DNA of 64,000 nucleotides. Source: Pseudomonadota bacterium. GTDB lineage: Bacteria; Pseudomonadota; Alphaproteobacteria; UBA2136; JAPKEQ01. Position 1 is the first letter of the stretch, and every line of letters begins with the position of its first letter. A program made the position numbers and the translations under genes. The notes beneath the pieces were generated by a model that worked only from the letters and a program-made list of their open reading frames with translations, did not search any database and was not told where the DNA came from. Below, one piece after another: positions 15,779 to 53,912 of the stretch. The stretch lies in the NCBI GenBank assembly GCA_036141575.1, contig JAYZXF010000001.1:1-64000 (forward strand), given 5' to 3'.

Positions 15779-18202
15779 ATGACAACAATGATCTGTTATA
15801 TTGGAGTTGCAATTCTTGCACTCTATGCACTCTTGTACCTAAGAAAAGGCTTTGCAGCCTGGGTATTTGGTTGTGCGATTCTATTTTATGGAATTCATAC
15901 GCTATACAGCCCAGAAGGGGTTTGGTTTACAGCGCTGCTCTCTGTGTATGTGACAGCAATTCTTATTTTTGGTATTACGCCACTGAGACGTATTCTTGTG
16001 AGTAGCTTTATCATGAATATTGCGGCAAAAGTTCTGCCAACAATTTCAGAAACTGAAGATACAGCTCTTAAAGCGGGTACAACATGGCTTGAGGGTGAGT
16101 TTTTCTCAGGTAAACCTGACTGGAAAAAGGTAAAAGACTTTAAACCGAAAAAGCTCACAAAAGCTGAAAAGGATTTCCTAAATAAGCAAGTGGATAAGCT
16201 TTGCGGTATGATTGATAACGACCAAGTGCATTGTGATCGCGAGCTCCCTGAAAAGGTTTGGGATTACATTAAGAAGGAAAAATTCCTTGGTATGATCATT
16301 CCTAAAAAGTACGGTGGTCTTGGCTTTAGTGCGATTGGTCACAGCGAAGTTGTGACAAAGATTTCAAGCCGCTCACTGCCAACAGCAGTGATGGTCATGG
16401 TACCCAATTCTCTAGGCCCTGCTGAACTTCTCCTGCATTACGGAACAAAAGAGCAGAAAGATTATTACTTACCGCGCCTTGCTGTTGGTGAAGAAATTCC
16501 ATGTTTTGCCCTAACAGAGCCACATGCAGGGAGTGATGCTGCCAATGGCCGTAGCTTTGGTACGGTTGTGAAGAAAAAGGTCAAAGGTAAAGAGGTTATT
16601 GGTATTAACCTAACCTTTGATAAGCGTTACATTACGCTTGCGCCAATTGCCACTGTGGTTGGTCTTGCTTTCCGTCTGTATGACCCTGAGCATATTCTTG
16701 GTGATGAGGAAGATATTGGTATTACATGTGCGCTTCTGCCACGCGATACAAAGGGTCTTAAAATCGGTAACCGTCATGATCCAATGGGCGTGCCATTCCC
16801 GAATGGTACCGTGCAAGGTAAAGACGTATTTGTTGAGCTAGACCGCATTATTGGTGGTAAAGCTTACGCAGGCCAGGGCTGGCGCATGCTTATGGAATGT
16901 TTGTCTGTGGGTCGTAGTATTTCTCTTCCATCACTCAGTGTGGGTGGAGCAGAGCTTACGGTGCGTGCTGCAACAGCATATTCTCAAGTTCGTGAACAGT
17001 TTGGTGTACCAATTGCTGCCTTTGAAGGAATTCAAGAGCGTTTGGTGCGTTGTGCTGCACTTGCCTATTCAATGGATGCAATGCGTGTTCTCACGTGTGG
17101 TGGTGTTGATGCGGGCGAGAAGCCATCGGTGATGTCTGGTATCTCTAAGAACTACCTAACGGAAGGTATGCGTACCTGCGTAAACGATGGTATGGATATC
17201 ATGGCTGGTAGCGCTATTTGCCAAGGTAAGGCCAATATCTTTGGTCGTGCTTATCAGGCAATTCCAATTGGAATTACTGTAGAGGGTGCGAACATCCTGA
17301 CTCGTTCTATGATTGTCTTTGGGCAGGGGGCTATTCGTTGTCATCCATACCTGCAGGCTGAAACAGAATCTATCCAGAATATGGATCTGAAAGCCTTTGA
17401 TAAAGCGATCTTTGGTCACTTGAACCACTTTATGAGTAATACGGTTAAAGCTTTCGTGCTTGGCCTGACTGGTGGATATGGTGTTCCTGTATCGGGTGAT
17501 GCACTTGAAAAACGCTACTATAGAAAACTGACAAGACTGAGCCTTTCATTTGCTTCATTGTCAGATTATACACTTCTAACACTTGGTGGTAAGTTCAAGT
17601 TTAAGGAAAGTTTATCTGGTCGTTTTGCAGACGCACTTGGCCATATGAGCCTTGCAATGTCTGCGCTTCACCGCTACCACGGTGAAAAGGATAAGGCGGC
17701 ATACGCACCTGTTGTAGAACTTGCTCTGAAAACTCATATTTTTGAAATTGAGCAGGCGCTTAAAGAGGCGCATCGTAACCTGCCAAGTAACTTCCTTCGC
17801 TTTAAAATGGGGATTGCCATTGCACCGCTTGGATGGCGTGAGAAACGTCCAACGGATAAAGACATGCATGCTGTCATGAAAGTGCTGACTGATGCGAAGG
17901 ATAAAGTACGTATGGGACTGTCTGAAGCTGTTTATACGCCTAAGAAAACAGACCCTGGCCTCGGTGAGCTAGAGGATGCTCTTGCAAAGGTGAAGAAGGC
18001 TGTTGCTGCGCGTAAAAAGCTGAATAAGGCGCGTCGTACGCATGGCGTTGAAAAAGCACCTCTGGGTGTGATGGCTGAAGCAGCGAAGAAAGCTGGTGCA
18101 CTCACTGCAGCTGAAGCGAAACTCATTAAGGATGCTGATAAGGCAATGGATCATGTGGTGCAGGTTGCATCTTATGACCCTGAAGCTTACAAAGCACGAT
18201 AA
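15779..18202 (+). CDS. fadE: acyl-CoA dehydrogenase, E. coli FadE type, membrane-anchored
   Basis: FAD enzyme making trans-2-enoyl-CoA in the first oxidation step. The 807-aa length matches E. coli FadE (about 814) rather than the 380-600 aa soluble forms. The N-terminus has two or three hydrophobic helices (MTTMICYIGVAILALYALL and VYVTAILIFGITP). Core motifs include CFALTEPHAGSDAA, the GVPIAAFEGIQERL helix, and EGANILTRSMIVFGQGAIR. The long C-terminal region corresponds to the DUF1974 extension. It ends the operon and is followed by a clear terminator. Pairing a Gram-negative FadE with a FadN-type partner is a mosaic arrangement. Confidence 0.94.
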   Translation: MTTMICYIGVAILALYALLYLRKGFAAWVFGCAILFYGIHTLYSPEGVWFTALLSVYVTAILIFGITPLRRILVSSFIMNIAAKVLPTISETEDTALKAGTTWLEGEFFSGKPDWKKVKDFKPKKLTKAEKDFLNKQVDKLCGMIDNDQVHCDRELPEKVWDYIKKEKFLGMIIPKKYGGLGFSAIGHSEVVTKISSRSLPTAVMVMVPNSLGPAELLLHYGTKEQKDYYLPRLAVGEEIPCFALTEPHAGSDAANGRSFGTVVKKKVKGKEVIGINLTFDKRYITLAPIATVVGLAFRLYDPEHILGDEEDIGITCALLPRDTKGLKIGNRHDPMGVPFPNGTVQGKDVFVELDRIIGGKAYAGQGWRMLMECLSVGRSISLPSLSVGGAELTVRAATAYSQVREQFGVPIAAFEGIQERLVRCAALAYSMDAMRVLTCGGVDAGEKPSVMSGISKNYLTEGMRTCVNDGMDIMAGSAICQGKANIFGRAYQAIPIGITVEGANILTRSMIVFGQGAIRCHPYLQAETESIQNMDLKAFDKAIFGHLNHFMSNTVKAFVLGLTGGYGVPVSGDALEKRYYRKLTRLSLSFASLSDYTLLTLGGKFKFKESLSGRFADALGHMSLAMSALHRYHGEKDKAAYAPVVELALKTHIFEIEQALKEAHRNLPSNFLRFKMGIAIAPLGWREKRPTDKDMHAVMKVLTDAKDKVRMGLSEAVYTPKKTDPGLGELEDALAKVKKAVAARKKLNKARRTHGVEKAPLGVMAEAAKKAGALTAAEAKLIKDADKAMDHVVQVASYDPEAYKAR

Positions 18203-18215
18203 TCTAATGAAGTTA

Positions 18216-18246
18216 GAAAGAGGGGCGCATGGGCGCCTCTTTTTTG
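18216..18246 (+). terminator. intrinsic terminator of the fad operon
   Basis: A GC-rich stem, AGAGGGGCGC paired with GCGCCTCTT around the loop ATGG, is followed by a run of six T. It starts 14 bases after the fadE stop and is oriented for plus-strand termination. Confidence 0.88.
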
Positions 18247-18395: not shown

Positions 18396-21300
18396 ATGAT
18401 TCATAAAATTTTGAAGAGCATCTTTGTAGCTACGCTATTAACGATATGTGCCATTTCAGCTGAAGCTGCGGAGAAAGCTATTGGTAGTGTGAGTGCTATT
18501 TCTGGTGAGGCTTATGCTATTAATGAGGACGGCTCACGTGTCGATCTTGCTCTTAAATCACCTATTTTCCAAAATCAAACAGTCGTGACAGGTCAAGATG
18601 GTAAGGTCCAAATCATCTTTATCGATAACAGTATTTTTACAATTAGTGCCAACACAGAACTCCTTATTGATGAATATGTTTACAACGCTGATACGCAGCA
18701 AGGTAAATCAATCATGAATGCCACAAAGGGTGTATTTAAGTTTGTAACAGGTAAGATTGCCAAGAATAACCGCGAAGAAGTGAAGGTGAAGACACCGTTT
18801 GCAACAATTGGTGTGCGTGGTTCTGGTGGTATTATTGCGGTTGACCCAATTGCAGGGACACGTGTAGGTCTAACACAATGTTGTCTTGATGTTCAAACGC
18901 CAGGTGGCTCTATCCCTGTGGCGCTTGACCAGATGGGTACATTTATTGAAGTGCAGGACCCAGATCAGCCAGCGCCTCAGCCAAAACCTGTGGATGCTGC
19001 GTTCTCTCGTATTATTCAAGAAAACTTTAACGCAGGCTTTGGTCAGGATGATGGCTCTGAAAATCCATTACAAGTTAGTGAAAAACAGGAACGTAAAGCA
19101 GAGCGCCGTGAGGTTCGTAGAGAACAGCGATCTCAGCAAAAACCGCGCCTTGTAGAAGGTGAAGTTAAGCCTTTAGAGCCAGTGGCTGAAAATGATGACA
19201 AGCCTCTAGAGCCTATTGCAGAAACAGACCTGCAAGAGCCTGTTTTGGAACCTATTGTTTCAGATCCTTTGGTGAATGACCCTATTTTAACAACTTCAAT
19301 TGAAGAAACTCAAATTAGTTTGGTAGATGTTAACCAAGACCAGGCAGATGATGATGCGACTGGTGGTAACTTGTCTACTAACACAACGCATATGGGTAAG
19401 TTTGTACGTAGATCTGGTGCAGGCCATATTGTTGAAGGGTCAATTTCTGGTCAGTTCCTAGCTGATGGTTCATTTGCTGCAAGAATTACAGACCAGGGGC
19501 GCACATTCTCAGCTCTTCTTCCAATTAGTGATAATGGCTTTGGTAGTGAGTCTTCAGTTGTGATTGATGGTACAGAATTTAATATACGTTACTTTAAGCA
19601 CCCGAATGAAGAGTTCTTTGTTGTAAACCTCGAGGATGTTCATGGTACAGACAATATTGCAGTATTTGCAGGTGAGCCTTATAGTGGAGCGCTTCCAACA
19701 AATGGTATTGAAACATATGGATTTGTACCTAACTTCTCAAACTCAAATGTGAATGAGCAGGACAGGTTTGATGGCGTACTCTACAACGATTATATTAGCC
19801 GCAACTTTATTGGTGGTAACTTGAGCACAAGCCTTGATGGTAACGGTAATGTTGTGATTGATGGATTTGGTGCCGTATTTGGTGATATTGGTTCACATGG
19901 TCAAGCGGGTACATTTGCAGGCTATGAAGCGATGAATAATGAAGTGTTTACAGGAACAACCATGTCGGCTGGTTCTGATGCTTACTTTGGTTCAGGTCCT
20001 GCTCCTTCTGGTATTTTGTTAGAGACAAGTTCGGCAGGTGCTGGAGAAAGTATTGATAGCTTTGCGCGCCGTCCTGATGATGTAGACTTTACAACAAAAG
20101 CCAATGCTGACCGCAACCAAACAAGAACATACCGTGGATTTATTGGTGGCTTTATGAGTGTAGATGCGGACGGTAATGGCTCTCCTGAGTACCGCCGTCT
20201 GACAAACTCAGTTGTAAATGGCCGTGTTGATCGTGGTATTGAAGTGAATGTAAATACAGCAACAGATGCAACAAATAATGTGAGTGCCAAAATTGAAGGC
20301 TTCCTTGATGATGGCCAAGAAGATGTTAATACAAATGGAACAACACAAGAAATTGTGAGAGCTGATTTTGACTTTGGTACAGCAGCTCATTTGACAGCGT
20401 ATGCAGCAGAGCAACAAACTTCAGGTGTGAACTCTGGTGTTGTTGTTGTGGGTGACTCTCAAGCTGATGTTGTTACAGTTTACGGAAACAGTGCCTCTAC
20501 TGGTAGTGGCATGGTGGGCGGTATTGCAGGCGATGGATTTGGTAATGCTGTCGCTGTAAGTGGTGACTGGATGCTAGTAGGTGCGCCAGATGATACATCT
20601 GGTGGTACAGATGGATTTGTTCAATTTTATAAGCGTGATGCACAAGGTGTTTGGACAGCGCATGGTAGTATGGTGTCTTCTCCTGATTCAGAAGCTGGTG
20701 GAGAGTTTGGTTATGATGTTGCCATTCATGGTGACTTGGCCTTTGTAGGTGCTAAGCGCGAAGATGATGCTCTTGCTGATAATGGTGCGGTTTATGTTTA
20801 TGAACTGAACGGCAACACTTGGGCTCCTACTGGTCAAAAAATTATTGGTAATGCAGCTAGTGACTTCTTTGGACGTGACGTTGATGTAAGCGGTAACTAT
20901 ATGGCTGTTGGTTCAGCCCAAGCTGCAACATTTAATGTTTACTTTAGGCACCCAACAACAGGTGTATGGCAAGACAGACAGGCTGTACCTAACATTTCAA
21001 ACATGGCAGGTATAACGTCTGTTGCGATTAGTGAAAATGGAGACTTTGCAGCTGTAGGTAGCAGTAGTGCTGGTGGCTCAAATGGTGTGGTGCAGATTTT
21101 CCGTTGGAGTGGGAGTATGTATCAGCCTTATAGAGTGATTAATGGTAACTCTACATCTGGACTTGGTGAATCTATTGCTATTAAGCATGATAAAATCGTT
21201 ATTGGTTCACCAGCAGAATCTAGAGGTTACTTGATTGATATGAACGCGCTTGGTGCAGGAGCAGCTGTTAATATTGGTGCTGCTGGTGCAGTCACAATTG

Positions 21301-22109
21301 ATGGGGGGGCTGGTAACGGTCTTGGTGAAACTGTCGCCTTTAACGGTGATCGCGTTGTACTTGGTAATAGTACTTATAATGTAGGCGGTAATGGTGGTGC
21401 CTTTAGAATCTTTACCCTAAGTGGTGATCAGAGCGAGGTAATTGCATCAAGTAATCTATTTACGGGTGCTGCAGATGCAACGAATGATCTTGGTTCTGAT
21501 CTGGCGGTTGCTGATATGGTGATTTCTCATAACAACCAAGGTGTACTTGTGAGTGATTTTGTAGCAGATCCTGCGCACCGTTGTACGGATTGTAATTATG
21601 CGCACTGGGGAATCTGGGCAGGTGCTCTAGAAAATGATGGCCTTGTTAGTGCTGGCGATCTTGCAAGAGCAGAGGCTGTTTACTACGTAGCTGGTGAACA
21701 AATGATGCAGGGTGCAGACCTTGATGCTTATGTAAGCACGACTCCTGGTGTTGTAAGCTTTAATGGTATGACAGCAGGTGCAATTGATACACATGGTACG
21801 CTCACGCACCATATCGGTAGTTTTGGTGCAGATGTGGACTTTGATAACCGTAACCTAAGTGTGACTGACTTTACACTTGGAGACTATAGCCTTTCAGGTG
21901 GTGCTGCAACTTGGTCAGCTGGGCAAGGTGCATTTACTGGTGCTCTTTCTATCGATAATATTGGAGCAGGTGGAGCAGAGACATTGAGTGGTGATATTAA
22001 TGGTGCTTTCTTTGGGCCTGCTGCGGATGATATTGGCGGTAACTATAGCCTAGAAAATTCAGGACAGGATATTAAGGCTTCAGGTATTTACCTCGGTACT
22101 CAAAACTAA
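18396..22109 (+). CDS. secreted FecR-domain / beta-propeller / TbpB-like barrel protein
   Basis: 1237 aa, signal peptide to about residue 24 (AISAEAAE). Residues about 35-150 are a FecR domain (VVTGQDGKVQIIFIDNS, KVKTPFATIGVRGSGG). A Pro/Glu-rich linker spans about 190-310. Residues 330-690 are Gly/Asp/Asn-rich beta sequence of unknown type. Seven FG-GAP-like repeats start near 712, 770, 823, 873, 921, 974 and 1030 (for example FGNAVAVSGDWMLVGAP, LGESIAIKHDKIVIGSP), enough for a complete seven-blade propeller. From about 1059 a domain like the TbpB/lipocalin-style barrel ends with INGAFFGPAADDIGGNYSL. It stands alone between two terminators. Surface display and ligand binding are inferred. 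Confidence 0.85.
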   Translation: MIHKILKSIFVATLLTICAISAEAAEKAIGSVSAISGEAYAINEDGSRVDLALKSPIFQNQTVVTGQDGKVQIIFIDNSIFTISANTELLIDEYVYNADTQQGKSIMNATKGVFKFVTGKIAKNNREEVKVKTPFATIGVRGSGGIIAVDPIAGTRVGLTQCCLDVQTPGGSIPVALDQMGTFIEVQDPDQPAPQPKPVDAAFSRIIQENFNAGFGQDDGSENPLQVSEKQERKAERREVRREQRSQQKPRLVEGEVKPLEPVAENDDKPLEPIAETDLQEPVLEPIVSDPLVNDPILTTSIEETQISLVDVNQDQADDDATGGNLSTNTTHMGKFVRRSGAGHIVEGSISGQFLADGSFAARITDQGRTFSALLPISDNGFGSESSVVIDGTEFNIRYFKHPNEEFFVVNLEDVHGTDNIAVFAGEPYSGALPTNGIETYGFVPNFSNSNVNEQDRFDGVLYNDYISRNFIGGNLSTSLDGNGNVVIDGFGAVFGDIGSHGQAGTFAGYEAMNNEVFTGTTMSAGSDAYFGSGPAPSGILLETSSAGAGESIDSFARRPDDVDFTTKANADRNQTRTYRGFIGGFMSVDADGNGSPEYRRLTNSVVNGRVDRGIEVNVNTATDATNNVSAKIEGFLDDGQEDVNTNGTTQEIVRADFDFGTAAHLTAYAAEQQTSGVNSGVVVVGDSQADVVTVYGNSASTGSGMVGGIAGDGFGNAVAVSGDWMLVGAPDDTSGGTDGFVQFYKRDAQGVWTAHGSMVSSPDSEAGGEFGYDVAIHGDLAFVGAKREDDALADNGAVYVYELNGNTWAPTGQKIIGNAASDFFGRDVDVSGNYMAVGSAQAATFNVYFRHPTTGVWQDRQAVPNISNMAGITSVAISENGDFAAVGSSSAGGSNGVVQIFRWSGSMYQPYRVINGNSTSGLGESIAIKHDKIVIGSPAESRGYLIDMNALGAGAAVNIGAAGAVTIDGGAGNGLGETVAFNGDRVVLGNSTYNVGGNGGAFRIFTLSGDQSEVIASSNLFTGAADATNDLGSDLAVADMVISHNNQGVLVSDFVADPAHRCTDCNYAHWGIWAGALENDGLVSAGDLARAEAVYYVAGEQMMQGADLDAYVSTTPGVVSFNGMTAGAIDTHGTLTHHIGSFGADVDFDNRNLSVTDFTLGDYSLSGGAATWSAGQGAFTGALSIDNIGAGGAETLSGDINGAFFGPAADDIGGNYSLENSGQDIKASGIYLGTQN

Positions 22110-52426: not shown

Positions 52427-53912
<1,486 letters not shown>

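Follow-up and report, generated by a model that had tools for sequence, protein, structure and literature searches.

Within a 64,000-nucleotide stretch of DNA from a Pseudomonadota bacterium (assembly GCA_036141575.1, contig JAYZXF010000001.1, positions 1–64,000), here called the window and analysed as a whole, a gene on the forward strand (18396..22109) encodes a 1,237-residue protein in which a FecR domain, a linker, a beta-rich middle region, an FG-GAP-type propeller and a TbpB-like C-terminus follow one another. On balance, and with some reserve, we read this protein as a cargo of the Slam/type 11 secretion system (T11SS) that acts as the outside part of a FecR–CHASE2–cyclic AMP (cAMP) signalling module, with the propeller as an additional binding head. 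As judged from profile searches, proteins that join FecR to a TbpB-type barrel recur as a conserved family across Alphaproteobacteria, and their genes often neighbour those for Slam and a CHASE2 adenylate cyclase. The combination that a first-pass annotation of the sequence had called unusual is thus shared in its FecR and barrel parts; what is unusual is the insertion of a propeller between FecR and barrel in one genus, together with the relocation of the gene.

The open reading frame starts with ATG and runs for 1,237 codons without an internal stop. Its domain order, as first read from the letters (FecR, propeller, TbpB-type end), was borne out by Pfam, by the repeat pattern and by a profile of the C-terminus. 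Residues 1–25 (18396..18470) form a putative Sec-type signal peptide, MIHKILKSIFVATLLTICAISAEA followed by AEK, likely cut between AEA and AE; judged by eye, it is typical (KILKSIFVATLLTICAISAEA followed by AE), and a pattern search of the protein returned no lipobox. The FecR domain with its conserved extension occupies residues 26–200 (18471..18995) and carries the motifs TPFATIGVRGSGG and TQCCL; Pfam FecR matches residues 62–143 at 3.6e-10. A charged, proline-rich linker of low conservation comes next (residues 201–325, 18996..19370), 38% identical to its counterpart in a second member of the genus and highly variable across the order. The beta-rich middle (residues 326–680, 19371..20435) is the first part of a domain interrupted by the propeller, and it aligns with propeller-free homologues; from this position it may correspond to the TbpB 'handle', its fold not being recognised.

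The C-terminal region (21543..22106) ends in GAFFGPAADDIGGNYSL...SGIYLG and begins with a conserved CxxCxxxxWGxWA motif, the CxxC of which lies at 21582..21593; the motif is invariant in six aligned homologues and is also present in the second genus member (G001) and in a genome from another family of the class (G196). Pfam TbpB_B_D matched the window protein alone at 0.014, under the cut-off. When the last 188 residues of six homologues were made into a profile, it retrieved TbpB chains first among PDB sequences (best E-value 1.1e-8) and NHBA/GNA2132 next (5.6e-5), in keeping with the similarity originally proposed, and all six members matched TbpB_B_D individually (best 3.4e-6). Because of these profile and individual matches, the relation of the C-terminus to TbpB is supported at the level of sequence. 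The window gene is the only TbpB_B_D match in its genome.

The inserted propeller spans residues ~681–1045 (20436..21530). Seven repeat starts had been placed near residues 712–1030, and seven were recovered, at about residues 713, 769, 823, 872, 921, 973 and 1030, with a measured spacing of 48–57; Pfam FG-GAP_2 matched over its cut-off (1e-19), three repeats passing individually. Blades 1, 2 and 6 are strong and blades 3–5 weak, and the seventh consists of an inner strand alone, so that a strand pair near residues 682–697 would have to complete the ring, the two ends overlapping. AlphaFold2 modelled residues 668–1062 with a predicted local distance difference test score (pLDDT) of 68.5 and a predicted template modelling score of 0.76. 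In a Foldseek search with this model, integrin alpha-4 and numerous classical propellers with seven blades were among the top matches, and among viral models the propeller matched FG-GAP proteins. Closure of the ring is likely from the model, short of demonstrated, because the final ~38 residues, which make up the last blade from ~1025, fall below pLDDT 50. Of the structure first proposed, a propeller of seven-bladed type was thus recovered, its last blade poorly defined, and the barrel region was poorly modelled. No integrin-type DxDxDG calcium loops were seen by eye in residues 681–1045, a propeller profile found nothing significant among PDB sequences, and viral contigs, searched for a deeper alignment, yielded no relatives of the propeller. 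Several adjoining FG-GAP proteins of ~530 residues are encoded in another family of the order (L022, G002:C2:623764-628474; L024, G015:C73) and are a possible source of the propeller.

Comparison with related genomes identified the propeller as an insertion. Five genomes of the order (G003–G006 and G008) encode a homologue of 908–1,027 residues without a propeller, with FecR first and the CxxC/TbpB region last. Alignment with this version placed ~340 inserted residues in a variable loop ahead of the conserved GVLVSDFVAD...CxxC stretch. Among the genomes compared, only that of the window and its congener G001 (locus L032, metagenome-assembled genome (MAG) ANT-120) carry the insertion. The congener encodes a 63% identical protein of the same architecture at the same locus with the same neighbours, so the window protein is not misassembled. 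Between the two, identity is 85% in FecR, 71% in the C-lobe, 38% in the linker and 26–70% in the blades, and the non-synonymous and synonymous divergences (dN 0.31, dS 1.34) indicate purifying selection overall.

In all five propeller-free genomes the cargo gene is flanked directly by a Slam-type gene (TPR and SlipAM; SlipAM/TPR_Slam) on one side and a CHASE2 adenylate cyclase gene on the other, all on the same strand, with a GAF gene upstream of Slam; the same four genes (GAF, Slam, cargo, cyclase) stand together in G196. The genome of the window itself also has the Slam partner whose existence the first-pass annotation had raised: one SlipAM protein over the cut-off, one CHASE2 protein and one TbpB-type match, the window gene. 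There GAF, Slam and CHASE2 cyclase genes, again with GAF upstream, lie together on contig C11 (L047, 7100–11261); the cargo gene is missing from its place between Slam and cyclase, which share a 7-nt overlap (ATGGTAA). The congener is split in the same way, each member of the genus keeping exactly one Slam–CHASE2 pair. No Slam gene adjoins the cargo gene in the window or in the congener, though one does in the five order-level homologues and in several at class level; similarly, a CHASE2 gene adjoins the FecR gene in the order-level relatives and not in this genus. Slam adjacency is usual for T11SS cargo, not a strict requirement. Most simply explained, the cargo gene departed from the operon in the genus of the window and acquired a propeller, in either order. 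An adjoining Slam and CHASE2 cyclase pair with overlapping open frames was seen on a short contig (L102, G103:C207, 1099–4889) where no FecR gene was detected, and both genus genomes encode a second small FecR protein of ~200 residues after a membrane-protein gene (L040, G000:C17, 8525–9154; L041, G001:C100, 4504–5094).

Co-occurrence with CHASE2 was also seen in the wider class. Within the order, CHASE2 occurred in 7/7 genomes with the cargo and in 0/11 without. The C-terminal profile matched 20 of 289 class genomes, 13 of which have FecR and a TbpB end in one gene (in G042 and G144, counted among the 13, the TbpB end was seen by the C-terminal profile search alone). All 13 contain CHASE2, compared with 136/289 overall (hypergeometric 4e-5, uncorrected for phylogeny or genome size). 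At 20 CHASE2 loci that were fetched, a non-random sample, a Slam-like gene was adjacent in 7 and a FecR gene lay within ~6 kb in 12, and Slam–FecR–CHASE2 neighbourhoods recurred in unrelated families. The wider module is looser than that of the order, because several FecR proteins at these loci lack a recognised TbpB end and the Slam-like partners are partly just TPR proteins by Pfam. The cyclase retains FSDI, DKYMGD, RFDYTVMGD and NLASRLE motifs, which we take to fit an active adenylate cyclase, as expected of class III. A stand-alone cyclic-nucleotide-binding protein of 196 residues (L100, G000:C17, 1249–1839), with the usual Arg and a GE...RNAT phosphate-binding motif and no DNA-binding domain, is a possible cAMP reader, as is a Crp/Fnr protein that lacks the cAMP-binding Arg (L096).

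Both halves of the arrangement have precedents. Slam exports T11SS cargo by means of the TbpB-type barrel at their C-terminus (PMC12282271, PMC8406197). The window protein resembles such cargo (TbpB, haemophilin HrpC, NHBA/GNA2132) in its putative signal peptide, variable N-terminal part and C-terminal TbpB-type barrel region, and its relatives also in the adjacent Slam gene; it differs in its N-terminal FecR domain and FG-GAP propeller and in having a cyclase, not a TonB receptor, as genomic partner. Neither FecR nor CHASE2 nor adenylate cyclase is mentioned in two surveys of T11SS cargo. In Campylobacterota a CHASE2 adenylate cyclase is clustered with a FecR outer-membrane protein and a TPR protein (PMC9239204), and in Burkholderia a LysM-FecR protein with a CHASE2 histidine kinase (PMC5192318); in the available portions of these reports, a FecR protein is likewise encoded with a CHASE2 sensor enzyme, the TPR protein extending the likeness in Campylobacterota, whereas a TbpB-type barrel and Slam export are not described and the FecR gene, unlike that of the genus of the window, is linked to the sensor gene. 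The CHASE2 cyclases of S. meliloti (CyaD1, CyaD2, CyaK) offer a further parallel: they answer an outside protein by way of the outer-membrane barrel NsrA (PMC13001267, PMC7529298), and near cyaD1 lies a gene for the FecR protein SMc02177 (PMC5498481). RTX adhesins, in which ligand-binding domains bud from split domains (PMC12077191), are alike in that the binding domain sits within another domain and not at an end; they are unlike in type I secretion, host domain and inserted folds. In a search limited to open-licence papers, we found none that connects CHASE2 or FecR to DUF560/Slam in the sense meant here, and none joining an FG-GAP propeller with TbpB-type cargo. Slam–TbpB cargo and FecR–CHASE2 clusters were each already known; their joining, and a propeller in TbpB-type cargo, are apparently new.

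Combining the precedents of Slam cargo, FecR–CHASE2 clusters and S. meliloti, we suggest that the cargo is an outside-facing receptor whose FecR domain speaks to CHASE2. The protein would be exported by Sec and then through Slam, and, by precedent in the family, its C-terminal TbpB-like barrel would be the export signal recognised by Slam in the outer membrane. The N-terminal FecR domain would lie in the periplasm as the partner of the inner-membrane CHASE2 adenylate cyclase, and the binding of something on the outside would be relayed by the cargo to CHASE2 in the periplasm and thence to cAMP. Ancestrally, Slam, cargo and cyclase would have formed one operon. In the genus of the window, the FG-GAP propeller of seven-bladed type inserted just before the barrel would be a new binding head; the cargo gene has moved to a fatty-acid locus, and Slam and cyclase, which stayed together elsewhere, presumably act in trans. 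We propose more tentatively, as a possibility we would not yet bet on, the full trans-envelope receptor, in which a propeller in a Slam-displayed TbpB-type cargo, with FecR kept in the periplasm, controls the CHASE2 adenylate cyclase. The broader expectation that this is a surface ligand-binding protein fits its domain order, propeller and TbpB-type end.

Several observations weigh against a Slam-exported signalling cargo. In its own genus the gene is unlinked to Slam or cyclase, and the pairing of the three is for that reason argued from descent and from their being the sole candidates. Phylogeny confounds the co-occurrence with CHASE2 within the order, since the 11 negative genomes all come from a single family. 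In many members of the class the cargo gene has no Slam next to it, and orphan copies beside unrelated genes are common. A model of residues 330–1237, computed from a two-row alignment of the window protein and L032, had a mean pLDDT of 41.5 and was poor outside the propeller; it did not confirm the barrel, and neither that region nor the middle one was assessed from it. A profile of the beta-rich middle had no matches in PDB or Pfam, so that no handle domain was matched. A canonical CRP carrying the cAMP-binding Arg did not turn up; the cyclic-nucleotide-binding protein and the Crp/Fnr protein were found instead. Finally, SMc02177 of S. meliloti, the FecR protein near CyaD1, is dispensable for perceiving the plant signal (PMC5498481).

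The first-pass annotation had noted that FecR usually signals iron status to a sigma factor, while pointing out that neither a TonB receptor nor a sigma gene is adjacent. The latter is correct: the flanking genes belong to fatty-acid oxidation on the upstream side and to queuosine salvage and the DUF547 family on the downstream side. Iron sensing through a sigma factor is not supported, since no anti-sigma region or transmembrane helix of that type precedes the FecR domain, which follows directly on the putative signal peptide, and since across the order FecR has a CHASE2 cyclase as its genomic partner. A TbpB-like protein that acquires iron or haem and feeds a TonB-dependent receptor would suit the TbpB/NHBA-like C-terminus, and TonB receptor genes are frequent neighbours of TbpB-type cargo genes (PMC8406197); we regard it as improbable, as there is no lipobox, the recurrent partner is a cyclase, and no TonB receptor lies beside the gene or was noticed beside those of its relatives, no genome-wide TonB search having been made. 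A shade less probable again is a LapA-like retained adhesin, whose FecR-like N-terminal domain would fold in the periplasm, plug the outer-membrane channel and hold the remainder at the surface. The FecR region does match the LapA retention module NF033682 in part (4e-8, below the cut-off), and its profile matches a Marinomonas adhesin chain (PDB 5ix9, 3.6e-6), but the former match spans about half of the retention model (3–77 of 145), no LapG-type (TAAG/AAAG-type) site was seen by eye, type I secretion features are absent, and no Slam channel is known to be blocked like this; LapG and LapD were not searched for.

The alternative to which we give most weight, while still thinking it doubtful, is a plain T11SS-type surface binding protein or adhesin that, having left the operon and acquired the propeller, no longer signals, binds a nutrient, polymer or surface, and uses FecR merely for anchoring or folding. 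The separation of the gene from the cyclase in the genus of the window speaks for it, as does the pattern of divergence, in which propeller and linker evolve fastest and FecR is best conserved. Against it, FecR is under the strongest constraint of all parts (85% identity), and both genus members keep exactly one Slam–CHASE2 pair, as expected if the three still cooperate. The unusual mix of domains could also have suggested a chance fusion or an assembly artefact; this we regard as practically dismissed, the artefact being refuted by the independent congener MAG with its identical architecture and neighbours, and by purifying selection.

At its present location the window gene is preceded by an intrinsic terminator with a 13-bp stem and a T run (18216..18245, forward strand), which ends the upstream acyl-CoA dehydrogenase operon; because this strong terminator closes the preceding operon, the gene is probably a transcription unit of its own. 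The neighbour, a FadE-type acyl-CoA dehydrogenase gene (15779..18202, forward strand), is outside the system and marks the new location, which is common to the congener. In another genome (G296; L077, L078, L081, L093), five matches to the cargo C-terminus were found, several beside lipid-metabolism genes; the window copy likewise stands by a fatty-acid operon. The window also holds a complete 16S rRNA gene (52427–53910); 23S and 5S genes were not found within it, and the three may therefore not be linked.

For most CHASE2 sensor enzymes, neither ligands nor input routes are known. If the FecR/TbpB-barrel proteins are indeed Slam cargo, a widespread outer-membrane secretion family would become a candidate source of input to cAMP signalling; the gene pairs described here provide concrete material for testing this. 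Should the proposal hold, it would define a class of receptors in which Slam is part of a signalling system, beyond its role as a secretion device, and the window protein would illustrate how such a receptor may be re-equipped by the insertion of a ready-made binding domain.

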